NCBI GenBank assembly: GCA_947364235.1
Contig: CANARY010000005.1
Span: 62,001-126,000, forward strand
DNA length: 64,000 nucleotides
Direction: 5' to 3'
From: an uncultured Candidatus Melainabacteria bacterium
GTDB taxonomy: Bacteria > Cyanobacteriota > Vampirovibrionia > Gastranaerophilales > Gastranaerophilaceae
The position numbers and the translations under genes are program-made. How positions within the stretch are numbered: position 1 is the first letter of the stretch; each line of letters starts with the position of its first letter. The notes under the pieces were generated by a model. That model was not told the origin of the DNA. It was given only the letters and a program-made list of their open reading frames with translations, and searched no databases. Below are positions 41,949 through 46,759 of the stretch, piece after piece.

Positions 41949-42974
41949 ATGAAATATAAAGATTATTATGAGATATTAGGCGTTTCACGTGATTCAGATG
42001 CTTCAGCTATAAAGTCTGCATACAGAAAGCTTGCGCGTAAATACCATCCTGATGTAAACAAAACAAAAGAAGCCGAAGAAAAATTTAAAGATATTAATGA
42101 AGCTTATGAAGTACTGTCTGACAAAGCAAAACGACAAAGATATGACAGCTTAGGCGCTAATTGGCAAGGCGGAGCTGATTACACACCTCCTCCTGGATTT
42201 GAAAACTTCAGCTTTAATTTTAATCAAGGCGGAGCCCAAAGCTTTGATTTTGGAGGCGGAGGTTTTTCAGACTTCTTTAGCTCATTATTTGGCGACATGA
42301 TGGGAGGCGGCATGGGCGCCCAGCAAGCTGGACAGAATTTTGGCGGCTTTGATTTTAGACAAAGTGCCGGAGCCGGCAGACAGAGAAGAGCCGAACAGCC
42401 TAAAAGCGAAGATTTAGATATTACAAAAAATCTTAATGTTACTGCTAAAGAAATTTTTGAAGGAAAACCAATTTCTGTAACATTCAATGATATGGAAAAA
42501 TGCACACATTGTCATGGCGGAGGATACTGTCCAAACTGCGGCGGAACTGGAATTGTTTCAAACAAGAAAAGTGTTAAAGTTAAGCTGCCAAAAGGAGTTA
42601 CTGAAGGTAAAAAAGTACGTTTAAAAGGTGAAGGCAAAGCAGATGCCTATGGTAATAAAGGAGATTTATACCTCATAGTTCATTTTAAAGATACCGAATA
42701 TGAACTTGAAGGCGAAAACTTGGTTAAAGAAGTTGAAATCACTCCTCCAGAAGCAGTTTTAGGCTGCTCAAAAGAAATCGAAACTCTTCACGGGAAAATT
42801 ACAATCAAAATTCCAGCAGGAGTTTCAAGCGGACAATCATTAAGATTGAAACAGATGGGACTCCCTAAAGCTTCAGGTTACAGTGATTTAAACGCTAAAA
42901 TAAAAATTGTAGTAACCAAAAATCCATCTAAAGAAGTTCTGGATTTGTATAAAAAATTACTGGCATTACAATAA
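41949..42974 (+). CDS. DnaJ-family co-chaperone with a reduced zinc centre
   Basis: A 341-aa J-protein. The J domain (residues 3-68) carries the HPD motif in KYHPDVNKT. A long Gly/Phe-rich stretch (about 75-150) follows. The two beta-sandwich client domains (150-335) are CbpA/DnaJ-like. Canonical DnaJ has four CxxCxGxG repeats and CbpA none; this protein has one reduced module, CTHCHGGGYCPNC (C185, C188, C194, C197), able to bind one zinc. It therefore lies between the two classes. A GGGG site precedes the ATG. It overlaps the convergent flagellin gene by 9 nt. Confidence 0.88.
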   Translation: MKYKDYYEILGVSRDSDASAIKSAYRKLARKYHPDVNKTKEAEEKFKDINEAYEVLSDKAKRQRYDSLGANWQGGADYTPPPGFENFSFNFNQGGAQSFDFGGGGFSDFFSSLFGDMMGGGMGAQQAGQNFGGFDFRQSAGAGRQRRAEQPKSEDLDITKNLNVTAKEIFEGKPISVTFNDMEKCTHCHGGGYCPNCGGTGIVSNKKSVKVKLPKGVTEGKKVRLKGEGKADAYGNKGDLYLIVHFKDTEYELEGENLVKEVEITPPEAVLGCSKEIETLHGKITIKIPAGVSSGQSLRLKQMGLPKASGYSDLNAKIKIVVTKNPSKEVLDLYKKLLALQ

Positions 42975-45407
42975 TTGCAGCGCTATAGACGGGGTTTGAT
43001 TAGCTGCAGCAAGAAGCGCAGCAGATGCTTGCTGTAAAATTTGGCTGCTTATGTACATAGAACTTTCTTTTGAAATATCTGCATCACGAATGGTAGAATT
43101 TGATGAGATAAGGTTTTCGTACTGCACGTTAATCTCTTCTAAAACACTTTCTAAACGATTTTGACAAGAACCATATTCGGTCTGTTTTGCAGAAATAGAA
43201 GCTAAAATATTATCAATAGTTTCCAGATAATTAACCCCATTTTTACCTATATTACGCAATTCCTCAATATTGTCTAAAGCAAAAGATGTATTTATAGATA
43301 TTTGCGACTCAGCTGATGAATTAATACCTACTTGGAAGATAATATCTGTATTAATATTGGTATCGTAAACAGGAGTTTTATGCACAATAGTTATAAGCTC
43401 GCTGATTTTTATATTTTCAGTAGTATTATGCGACCCCGCACCGGTGCCTATATTAGAGGTTGATTCAAGAAAACCATTAGCTTTTGGAGTAAATACAAAA
43501 GGAGCAGGCGTTCCCTTAGGTTTTGCTCCGCTATCAGCAGAAATCGTAATATTTCCCCCTTTACTGCCTATAAAATCATCAATGCTTGTTGAAGTAGATG
43601 CATTGACAACACCTGTCGAAATGCATTTATTTAAAACAGCATTAACTGAATACCCTGCAAAACCTCCAAGTCTTTGATTACCTTCTATATTTCCTATAGA
43701 ATAACAATTTGTAATCGTTCCGGCTAAAAATCCTGCAAATCCTCCTGCCCCGTTAGCACCAATTACATTTCCAGTTGAATAACAATTTTTAACACTTTTT
43801 GCTCCAGCATCACAATAACCCAACAATCCGCCTGTATATTCTTTTCCTTCAACTTTTCCGGTTGAAAAACAATCAGCAACTGTGCCGTAAGAAACTCCTA
43901 TAAGCCCGCCAACGCTATTATTTCCTTTTACATCTCCTGTTGCATAACATTTGCTGATAGAAGAATTTACACCTAAATTACCAAGAAAACCTCCTGCAGA
44001 ATCACCGCCAGATTCGACATTTCCAAGAGCATAACAATTTGATATAGAAGAATCTGATATTGTGCCCATTAGACCGCCGACTTGAAATCCGGTTGCTATT
44101 ACATTACCTGTTGCATAACAGTTTCTAACAACACTATTTTGGTTTATTCCGCCTATTAAACCTCCAATTTGGCTGTCTCCAACTACTTTTCCAGACGCCA
44201 TACAGTTTTCGATTATTGAATTAGGACCGCATATACCAGCAAGCCCGCCAGATTCTTTTTCAGATTTTACATTTCCGGTCGCGTAACAATTACGTACAGT
44301 TGTTTTGTAAGGATCTCCAATCAACCCGCCTATAAATCTGATGCCTTCAGCAGAACAAGTTGAAAAACAATTTTCTATTAAAGCTCCATTCGGTGTTCCT
44401 AATAATCCTCCAACTGCATCATTGCCTTTTACTGAACCAGAAGTATGACAGTTAGTTATATTATTATAAGTATACCCGACAAGCATTCCTACATCGTTAA
44501 ATCCCTCTATTTTTCCGGATGCATAGCAATTACTTATATCTGAACGTGCTCTGCCTGCAAGTCCGCCGGTAAAAGTGCCGCCTGTAATATTAACGTTTTT
44601 TAACCCTAAATTTGTTATTTCAGAGCCTGTATCAGTATAACCGAATAGACCTTGGTAGTTTTCATCTGGACGATTTATATAAAGATTTGTGATAATATGA
44701 CCATTTCCGTTGAATTTTGCTGCAAAAAGATTTACTGTATTACCTATTGGAGTCCAGCCCTCACCACTTGAATAACCAGAAAGGTCAATATCATTTACCA
44801 GTACAAACTCTGTGTCAGCTCCAATTAACCCGGCATTAGTCATAGAAGCAAGCTTAGCAAGCTCTTTTGCAGTTGAAATCGCATACGTTCCTTCCGTTAA
44901 TTTTTGCGTTTCATCTACTTCATCAAAGCCGATTAAACCTTCAGTCCGAATTTCTTCAACTTCAATAATATAATCTATAATCCTTTTATCTAAAAAAAGA
45001 TTTATTCCGTTAAATTCGGTACTAGAATACAAATGCTCCACTTCATCTAAACGTGCATTAATTTCAGCATTTATTGCATCTTTAGAACTATTGCCGTAAG
45101 TATCGTTTTGCGCTTGCATGGTCAAATCGCGGATTCTTGCAAATTGTTTTGACATTAATGAAAGCGAATCATTTGCTGTCATTAACAAGTCCAAACCTTG
45201 CGCTGCATTATCCTCTGCTACTTGATAGGCGCTAATTTTGGCTGACATTTTGGTTGATATACTGTAGTTCGCTGCATTATCCTTAGCACCATTAATCTTA
45301 AATCCCGTTGTCATTCTTTCAACAGCACGATTAAGCCCGCCCGTTGACTGTTTCAAACTGGCTTGCGCGATTAAAGATGATAAGTTTGTATTAACTGTTA
45401 GAGGCAA
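42966..45407 (-). CDS. Flagellin-like protein with GLUG-repeat insert, 813 aa
   Basis: The first 140 residues match the flagellin N-terminal D0/D1 (MPLTVNTNLSSLIAQ, LNRAVERMTTGFKINGAKDNAA, FNGINLF). The last 120 match its C-terminal D1/D0 (TIRDADISKESSMYISSQIL, QTPSIALQLL). In place of the usual D2/D3, residues 172-625 hold a GLUG-type adhesin domain with about 13 Gly/Cys-rich repeats. Polymerisation would display these repeats on the filament surface. The start codon is TTG, with a strong TAAGGAGGA ribosome site. The leader holds an 11-bp G tract (coding strand) and a conserved promoter element lies further upstream. No other flagellar genes are in the window. Confidence 0.9.
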   Translation of the reverse strand: MPLTVNTNLSSLIAQASLKQSTGGLNRAVERMTTGFKINGAKDNAANYSISTKMSAKISAYQVAEDNAAQGLDLLMTANDSLSLMSKQFARIRDLTMQAQNDTYGNSSKDAINAEINARLDEVEHLYSSTEFNGINLFLDKRIIDYIIEVEEIRTEGLIGFDEVDETQKLTEGTYAISTAKELAKLASMTNAGLIGADTEFVLVNDIDLSGYSSGEGWTPIGNTVNLFAAKFNGNGHIITNLYINRPDENYQGLFGYTDTGSEITNLGLKNVNITGGTFTGGLAGRARSDISNCYASGKIEGFNDVGMLVGYTYNNITNCHTSGSVKGNDAVGGLLGTPNGALIENCFSTCSAEGIRFIGGLIGDPYKTTVRNCYATGNVKSEKESGGLAGICGPNSIIENCMASGKVVGDSQIGGLIGGINQNSVVRNCYATGNVIATGFQVGGLMGTISDSSISNCYALGNVESGGDSAGGFLGNLGVNSSISKCYATGDVKGNNSVGGLIGVSYGTVADCFSTGKVEGKEYTGGLLGYCDAGAKSVKNCYSTGNVIGANGAGGFAGFLAGTITNCYSIGNIEGNQRLGGFAGYSVNAVLNKCISTGVVNASTSTSIDDFIGSKGGNITISADSGAKPKGTPAPFVFTPKANGFLESTSNIGTGAGSHNTTENIKISELITIVHKTPVYDTNINTDIIFQVGINSSAESQISINTSFALDNIEELRNIGKNGVNYLETIDNILASISAKQTEYGSCQNRLESVLEEINVQYENLISSNSTIRDADISKESSMYISSQILQQASAALLAAANQTPSIALQLL
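43566..44657 (-). repeat. Thirteen GLUG-type protein repeats within the flagellin
   Basis: Units of 26-29 residues (residues 251-614) of the form ...NCYATGNV.G....GGLIG; for example SVVRNCYATGNVIATGFQVGG. Twelve of the thirteen units keep a Cys at the same place. Units are diverged at DNA level, so this is an old array rather than a recent expansion. GLUG repeats form beta-helical stalks in adhesins and IgA proteases. Confidence 0.85.
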
Positions 45408-45443
45408 TAAGTCCTCCTTAAATCAATACTGATAGCGTATACG

Positions 45444-45454
45444 CCCCCCCCCCC
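45444..45454. repeat. Homopolymeric C11 tract in the flagellin leader
   Basis: Eleven consecutive C (G on the coding strand), 37-47 nt upstream of the flagellin TTG start and downstream of the proposed promoter at 45528-45599. Runs of this length are unexpected in such AT-rich DNA and are hotspots for slipped-strand mispairing. The tract is flanked by the palindrome GCGTATACGC (45435-45444). Confidence 0.85.
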
Positions 45455-45527
45455 GAACAGCTATAAGCATGTCGCAGCAAGGGTTTGAGCGATTTTTTGT
45501 TTTAATTGTCGACATTAAAATTTAATC

Positions 45528-45599
45528 CTTATACATATTATATTCCACATTTATATACTTTTATAACAATCTTAATTAATTTTGTTACAAAGATTTACA
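45528..45599 (-). promoter_or_regulatory. Bipartite promoter element of the flagellin gene
   Basis: Read on the minus strand: TGTAAATCTTTGTAACAA (45599 to 45582), a 34-bp gap, then TGGAATATAATATGTATAAG (45547 to 45528), with a TATAAT -10 box. The distal part matches that at 21760-21777 in 16 of 18 positions with the same spacing. The predicted leader is about 120 nt and includes the C11 tract. Confidence 0.65.
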
Positions 45600-45610
45600 C
45601 ATTTAATTTC

Positions 45611-45661: not shown

Positions 45662-46759
45662 ATGACTAAACAAACTTTTTTACACGATAAACATGTAGCA
45701 TTAGGTGCAAGAATGGTAGATTTTGCCGGCTGGGATATGCCTGTTCAATATTCTTCAATAATTGAAGAGCATAAAACTGTGCGTGACAGCGTTGGTTTAT
45801 TTGACGTCTCTCATATGGGAGAAATGATTATTCAGGGTAAAGATGCTCTTCCATTTCTTAACAAGCTTGTTCCTCAAGATATTACAAAGCTTGCTGATTT
45901 AAAAGCAGTATACTGTCAGCTTACAAATAAGAATGGCGGTATTATTGATGATTTAATTATATATAAGCTTGAAGATAACAAGTATTTAATTATTGCAAAT
46001 GCTTCAAGAATTGATGAAGATTTAAATTGGATGGTAAGAAATAAAATCGGTTTTGATGTAGATATTATTAATGAATCTCATAATTACTCTCTTCTTGCTG
46101 TTCAAGGTCCTAGAGCTTGCGAGCTTTTGAAATCTCTTGGTGCAGAGGATTTGCCGCCTTTCTTTTCAATAAAACGCGGAGAGCTGTTTAACATAAACCT
46201 TTGGATTTCGCGTACAGGATATACAGGAGAAGATGGTGTCGAAATTCTTGTAAAGAATGAGTTTTCAGAATATCTTTGGGATAAGCTTCTTGAGAGCGGT
46301 AAAGAGTTTGGGATTAAACCAATCGGGCTTGGAGCTCGCGATACACTGAGGCTTGAAGCAGCGCTTCATTTGTACGGTAATGATCTTGATGAAAGTATTA
46401 CGCCGGTAGAAGCCGGGCTTGCTTGGTCTGTATCTAAGAATAAAACAGAAGATTATAATGGCAAAAAAGTTATTCTTGATCAAATTCAAAATGGAATATC
46501 AAAAAAACTTATCGGCTTAAAAATGCTTGATAAAAATATTGCAAGACATGGCTATGAAGTGTATTATAATAATGAAAAAATTGGAAATGTAACAAGCGGC
46601 GGCGTTTCACCTGTTAGAGGAGATAATATAGCGCTTGCTTACATAAAAAATCTTGACAATTTGACTGTAGGCTCTACAATTCAAATAATGGTAAGAGATA
46701 AATTGCACAATGCTGAAATTGTTTCAAAGCCGTTTGTAAAAAAGAATAATAAAGGATAA
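45662..46759 (+). CDS. gcvT: Glycine cleavage system T protein (aminomethyltransferase)
   Basis: Transfers the methylene group from the H-protein-bound aminomethyl intermediate to tetrahydrofolate, releasing ammonia. The 365-aa protein has FAGWDMPVQYSS, LFDVSHMGEM, the folate-binding catalytic region YCQLTNKNGGIIDDLIIYK, and ISRTGYTGEDGVEI. I chose ATG 45662 (MTKQTFLHDKHVALGARM), preceded by GGGGGATGAG. An upstream in-frame extension from 45506 is non-homologous and crosses the promoter. gcvH follows after 25 nt. Confidence 0.96.
   Translation: MTKQTFLHDKHVALGARMVDFAGWDMPVQYSSIIEEHKTVRDSVGLFDVSHMGEMIIQGKDALPFLNKLVPQDITKLADLKAVYCQLTNKNGGIIDDLIIYKLEDNKYLIIANASRIDEDLNWMVRNKIGFDVDIINESHNYSLLAVQGPRACELLKSLGAEDLPPFFSIKRGELFNINLWISRTGYTGEDGVEILVKNEFSEYLWDKLLESGKEFGIKPIGLGARDTLRLEAALHLYGNDLDESITPVEAGLAWSVSKNKTEDYNGKKVILDQIQNGISKKLIGLKMLDKNIARHGYEVYYNNEKIGNVTSGGVSPVRGDNIALAYIKNLDNLTVGSTIQIMVRDKLHNAEIVSKPFVKKNNKG

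Follow-up and report, generated by a model that had tools for sequence, protein, structure and literature searches.

Homopolymer contingency loci and translational coupling are each well known. Bordetella fim, with its poly-C tract, and Neisseria porA are promoter-spacer switches in which the homopolymer lies between the -35 and -10 elements. Coupling of translation through an overlapping stop and start (for example, ATGA overlaps) is usually described as a fixed arrangement. In Campylobacter jejuni, the ON and OFF states of Cj0170 and Cj1325 are set by the length of a G tract (PMC11955535). Flagellar phase variation in Salmonella and Escherichia coli is attributed to DNA inversion or excision in references cited in PMC7018530.

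The window considered here, a 64 kb (64,000 nt) stretch of a Candidatus Gastranaerophilales genome, has a G+C content of 33.6% and contains a single run of C or G of at least 6 nt. This is the C11 tract at 45444-45454, and the initial annotation had placed it exactly. The longest A and T runs in the window reach only 9 nt, and 100 dinucleotide shuffles of the window gave an expectation of 0.00 for runs of C9 or longer, so the homopolymer is far longer than expected by chance, as at contingency loci. Since the flagellin gene is located on the minus strand, its mRNA carries G11. Between the last base of the tract (45444) and the TTG start codon of the flagellin (from 45407) there are 36 bases, in agreement with the distance first noted. 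The tract, first described as part of a 5' leader, sits within a short upstream open reading frame (uORF) and not in untranslated leader.

The flagellin gene (42966..45407, minus strand) encodes 813 amino acids with Pfam matches to Flagellin_N (1.9e-27), Glug (3.9e-37), and Flagellin_C (6.5e-16), the GLUG repeats occupying the middle of the protein. On the coding strand, its leader begins with a promoter-like block common to flagellin leaders (TGTAAA..TTTGTAACAA..TGTTA..ATGTGGAATA..TATAA(G), consensus of 33 leaders; 45528..45605, minus strand), followed by an SD-like AAGGA (45526..45530, minus strand) and, 10 nt further, the uORF ATG (45515-45513). The uORF thus has an initiation site of its own by sequence, and other leaders have similar GGAtATG sites. 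Scripted translation of the uORF as assembled with G11 (45423..45515, minus strand) gives MSTIKTKNRSNPCCDMLIAVRGGGRIRYQY, which opens with MSTIKTKNRSNPCCDMLIAVRGGG, uses the tract to code for GGG, and terminates at a TGA located 18 nt upstream of the flagellin start codon. A strong Shine-Dalgarno sequence, AAGGAGG (45413..45419, minus strand), precedes the flagellin gene. The neighbors are a divergent gcvT-like (aminomethyltransferase) gene (45662..46759, plus strand), identified from its own sequence and from lying in a gene series that resembles gcvT-gcvH-gcvP, and, on the other side, a DnaJ/CbpA-like gene identified by eye (41949..42974, plus strand).

A change in tract length shifts the reading frame of this uORF. 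Relative to the flagellin start, the stop falls at +7 with G10 or G13, at -18 with G11 or G14, and at -13 with G9 or G12. At G10 or G13, the uORF ends at a TAA that overlaps the flagellin start region and lies within flagellin codons 3-4 (45398..45400, minus strand), whereas at G9 or G12 it ends at a TAA overlapping the flagellin Shine-Dalgarno sequence. We consider it fairly probable that the slippable poly-G tract switches the frame of a uORF to which translation of the flagellin is coupled. Transcription would start from the conserved promoter-like block and ribosomes would initiate at the uORF ATG. In the length class that brings the uORF stop onto the flagellin start (G10 and G13 in the window), the arriving ribosome would open a structured initiation region and reinitiate on the flagellin, giving the ON state. 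In the other two classes the uORF would end earlier and flagellin translation would drop, giving an OFF or low state, to which Rho-dependent polarity possibly adds. We infer that the uORF is translated and coupled, and that slippage causes the length changes through which expression would be switched. With several such flagellins per genome, the outcome would be a stochastic flagellin repertoire. At the window locus itself the effect of the switch may be small, because all three phases stop between -18 and +7 and the Shine-Dalgarno sequence is strong.

A second locus in the source genome (1.93 Mb in 12 contigs) is a clearer example of the proposed switch. Pattern searches, on which the genome-wide homopolymer counts are based, recovered a handful of G or C runs of at least 10 nt, among them a second G11 at C2:183705-183715 (L010), located 78 nt upstream of another GLUG flagellin. 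The C2 leader aligns with the window leader with 75% identity over 156 nt, and its uORF begins (MEKFLSELNNRQNPCSDMVTAARGGG...) where the window uORF begins. Here too the frame shifts with tract length, the stop falling at +7 with G10 or G13, at -75 with G11 or G14, and at -25 with G9 or G12. Both loci were assembled with G11, and coupling is predicted at both for G10 or G13. Contigs C11 (at its end) and C10 (at its start) break within C2-like leaders at CAAAACTCTTG, just before the expected position of the tract, and contigs C7 and C12 start within GLUG flagellin genes. The source genome thus probably has four switchable flagellins, two of them split by contig breaks, if C10 and C11 join to C7 and C12 as these breaks suggest.

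The same frame architecture recurs in tract-bearing leaders outside the window. In 23 of 24 such leaders, one of the two non-flagellin phases is open from the tract to the flagellin start, compared with 5.3 expected from dinucleotide shuffles (nominal P ~1e-33, although P values of this kind are too small because the leaders are partly paralogous). The sole leader without a continuous open frame is L065. The flagellin's own phase serves as an internal control, because the same relatedness applies to it, and is open in 0 of 24 (2.9 expected). The tracts are therefore not placed inside the switched gene, as they are in Campylobacter, and an N-terminal fusion of the uORF to the flagellin is ruled out by the closed flagellin phase in 24/24 leaders. 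Because one out-of-frame phase is open and the flagellin phase never is, it is the tract length that places the uORF stop on the flagellin start or away from it. In tract-bearing leaders the open frame terminates within about 4 to 14 nt of the first base of the flagellin, overlapping its start region, so in the coupled phase the upstream stop and the downstream start overlap or abut, as in translational coupling. Among leaders with spacers of at least 150 nt, 11 of 12 have an open non-flagellin phase, versus 0.11 expected. The longest open spacer (L090) spans 1,066 nt and consists partly of tandem repeats of 51 and 54 nt, each length being divisible by three. In contig C46 of G040, one in-frame stop is present across ~880 nt.

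Coupled frames kept across spacers of 200 to 1,066 nt are also consistent with the same switch acting at a different step, in which translation along a long leader protects the mRNA against Rho-dependent termination or decay, since polarity would be strong over such distances. However, the short spacers of 36-45 nt leave little room for polarity, and the predicted structure of the flagellin start regions favors coupling at the start itself; we regard polarity as a rather unlikely explanation. Compared with short flagellins, the tract/uORF flagellins have start regions with much more predicted structure (minimum free energy of -16.8 vs -8.3; unpaired fraction of 0.32 vs 0.67, p ~1e-9), a contrast that persists after shuffle correction for composition. 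Such structure is expected under translational coupling and is found in both the tract-bearing and the tract-less uORF groups. The window start region, with an unpaired fraction of 0.56, is less occluded than the group median, and masking of the start is more weakly predicted there than for the group.

The frame in which the leaders were assembled is also in keeping with a coupled uORF that can be switched. Under a fixed start rule that is simple and leaves some loci ambiguous, and at assembled tract lengths, 10/17 tract-less leaders have their uORF ATG in the coupled frame (the other 7/17 were not scored as coupled by this automatic rule), versus 1/13 tract-bearing leaders. The latter proportion would follow if, at a given moment, the majority of switchable copies were OFF. 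One further tract-bearing leader, L128 of G007, has G10 and is in the coupled frame, but was left out of this comparison because its contig ends just within the flagellin.

A different mode of action had been suggested by the initial annotation, in which changes in tract length alter folding of the leader, with Bordetella as a parallel. More generally, the tract could act at the RNA or DNA level, through leader folding, a G-quadruplex, or promoter spacing of the Bordetella fim type. A G11 run would be long enough for a two-layer quadruplex, and the predicted fold pairs part of the tract with an upstream CCC. However, folding of the window leader is not unusual (z -1.3 and -0.2), and the tract lies ~73 nt downstream of the -10-like TATAAG of the promoter-like block rather than between -35 and -10. 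Action at this level would also leave the open frames unexplained. We judge it to be improbable; the folding mechanism is not supported, and the promoter-spacer parallel does not fit this locus.

Tract length varies among closely similar leaders. Six leaders with near-identical flanks in G040 carry G9, G11, G11, G13, G13, and G14, which together represent all three phases. Only at G13 is the uORF open beyond 190 nt; at the other lengths it stops within 16 nt. Since at least one of these leaders, that on contig C49, has lost its flagellin, the G040 series demonstrates variation of the tract and not regulation. In G007, two leaders that are identical across 100 nt upstream have G10 and G13, and the G13 copy is located between dnaJ/cbpA-like and gcvT-like genes, as is the window locus, its flagellin being gone. 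Two contigs of SIG28 overlap as far as the tract and diverge there at G13/G14, a difference that could reflect either genuine variation or an error in the reads. Orphan leaders with promoter, uORF, and tract but without a downstream flagellin were seen at L129 and L130 (G007) and at L245 (G040). If RNA polymerase slipped or ribosomes shifted frame on the G run, a fixed DNA length would yield mixed frames and hence graded expression, and the same frame architecture would be expected to be selected. The differences in DNA tract length among near-identical leaders are instead what DNA slippage predicts, and we consider these alternatives very unlikely.

Some Gastranaerophilales are known to have flagella (PMC4040986). 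The GTDB species genomes matching the flagellin N-termini are mostly metagenome-assembled genomes (MAGs) labeled Candidatus Gastranaerophilales, uncultured cyanobacterium, or Melainabacteria; several come from animal feces or gut, and a few labels (Acinetobacter) are evidently wrong. We collected 139 distinct flagellin genes from the genus and the order, calling a tract where a G run of at least 8 nt occurs within 600 nt upstream and a flagellin long at 450 amino acids or more. Of 58 long flagellins, 22 are preceded by a tract, compared with none of the 60 short flagellins (Fisher 1.3e-8); the former fraction is slightly inflated by a few long loci that were fetched for their tract (e.g., L104), but the contrast is not in doubt. 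Short flagellins (e.g., L196, L208, and L218) share the promoter block and have another conserved leader (AAATGCAMGGACGCATTCGTAGGATGTG..CAGAAAGGAG). The restriction to long flagellins, the unequal tract lengths in near-identical paralogous leaders of one genome, and the presence of further G tracts within methyltransferase- and acyltransferase-like genes of the genus all support the original proposal that the tract is phase-variable. Methyltransferase- and acyltransferase-like genes are typical phase-variable classes. Some poly-G runs at contig ends do look artefactual (the end of C1 and a 65-base run at a contig end of G058), as they would if G runs arose from sequencing error or mutation bias and the uORFs were incidental. 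However, contig-internal tracts are found at a matching position across many MAG projects, are strongly tied to long flagellins, and are accompanied by open frames far above chance, which makes such a neutral or artefactual origin scarcely credible.

Several other G and C runs were noticed in these genomes. Runs of 8-16 nt occur within or at the end of neighboring DNA methyltransferase-like genes at L014 (G000:C7:108000-112000), L011 (start of C3), and L009 (end of C1), which are candidates for phase-variable methylation and possibly belong to prophage. In G003 and G011, G10 and G11 runs (L127 and L134) are located near the 5' end of long open reading frames whose likely ATG frame is out of phase with the body, making them candidate coding-tract switches. 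Runs of G9-G10 are found in or before acyltransferase- and glycosyltransferase-like open reading frames, identified by eye, at L108 and L109 (G013) and L116 (G008). A G7/C10 hairpin separates a NanE-like epimerase gene from a divergent open reading frame (L012, G000:C3:179295-179304). A reverse-transcriptase-like open reading frame (YMRYMDD motif, by eye) is present near a G8/C11 pair in phage-like genes (L013, G000:C7:84.2-85.0 kb). An intergenic G run followed by TAAAT (GGGGGTAAAT) recurs at, for example, L107, L112, L120, and L136-L138, and is perhaps a genus-specific repeat.

A candidate small RNA of ~74 nt was also noticed under a flagellin-type promoter block (G000:C7:18952-19025, plus strand; L280/L239). 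It is present in 59/63 genomes of the genus, nearly always in one copy and with 89-100% identity, ends in a terminator-like hairpin, and has no credible Rfam match. Its CUCCUCC and ACUCCUUUA stretches are complementary to flagellin Shine-Dalgarno sites, to which it might bind.

A broader reading, which we hold to be evenly balanced, is that one-by-one switching of duplicated large GLUG flagellins is genus-wide in gut Gastranaerophilales. The mutable poly-G tracts would reside in dispensable, fast-changing uORFs, each a mere frame gate whose post-tract sequence can freely change and acquire repeats, provided that one phase remains open as far as the flagellin start. If this is true, the mutable tract is kept outside the surface protein, so that the surface gene can evolve freely and yet stay switchable. 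Flagellin repertoires would then be expected to be stochastic in this widespread sister lineage of the cyanobacteria, which is non-photosynthetic, inhabits animal guts, and is largely uncultured. It also cautions that what looks like a poly-G "leader" may in fact be translated and act as a switch.

A mutable tract in a coupled uORF before a flagellin family had no match in the literature searched, most subscription journals lying outside it. The closest systems each share part of the arrangement. As in C. jejuni, a poly-G of similar length would switch frames at several loci per genome in an AT-rich gut bacterium; unlike the Campylobacter coding tracts, the tract here is in a separate uORF 36 nt upstream and the flagellin coding sequence is untouched. 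As in Bordetella fim and Neisseria porA, a homopolymer lies upstream of a surface-protein gene that remains intact, but in the present case it follows the promoter-like block and lies within an open reading frame. The overlap of the uORF stop with the downstream start, in a start region predicted to be structured, resembles translational coupling, although the mutable tract would make coupling conditional. Finally, the stochastic switching of alternative flagellins would parallel flagellar phase variation in Salmonella and E. coli, which is based on recombination, whereas the switch proposed here is based on reading frame.
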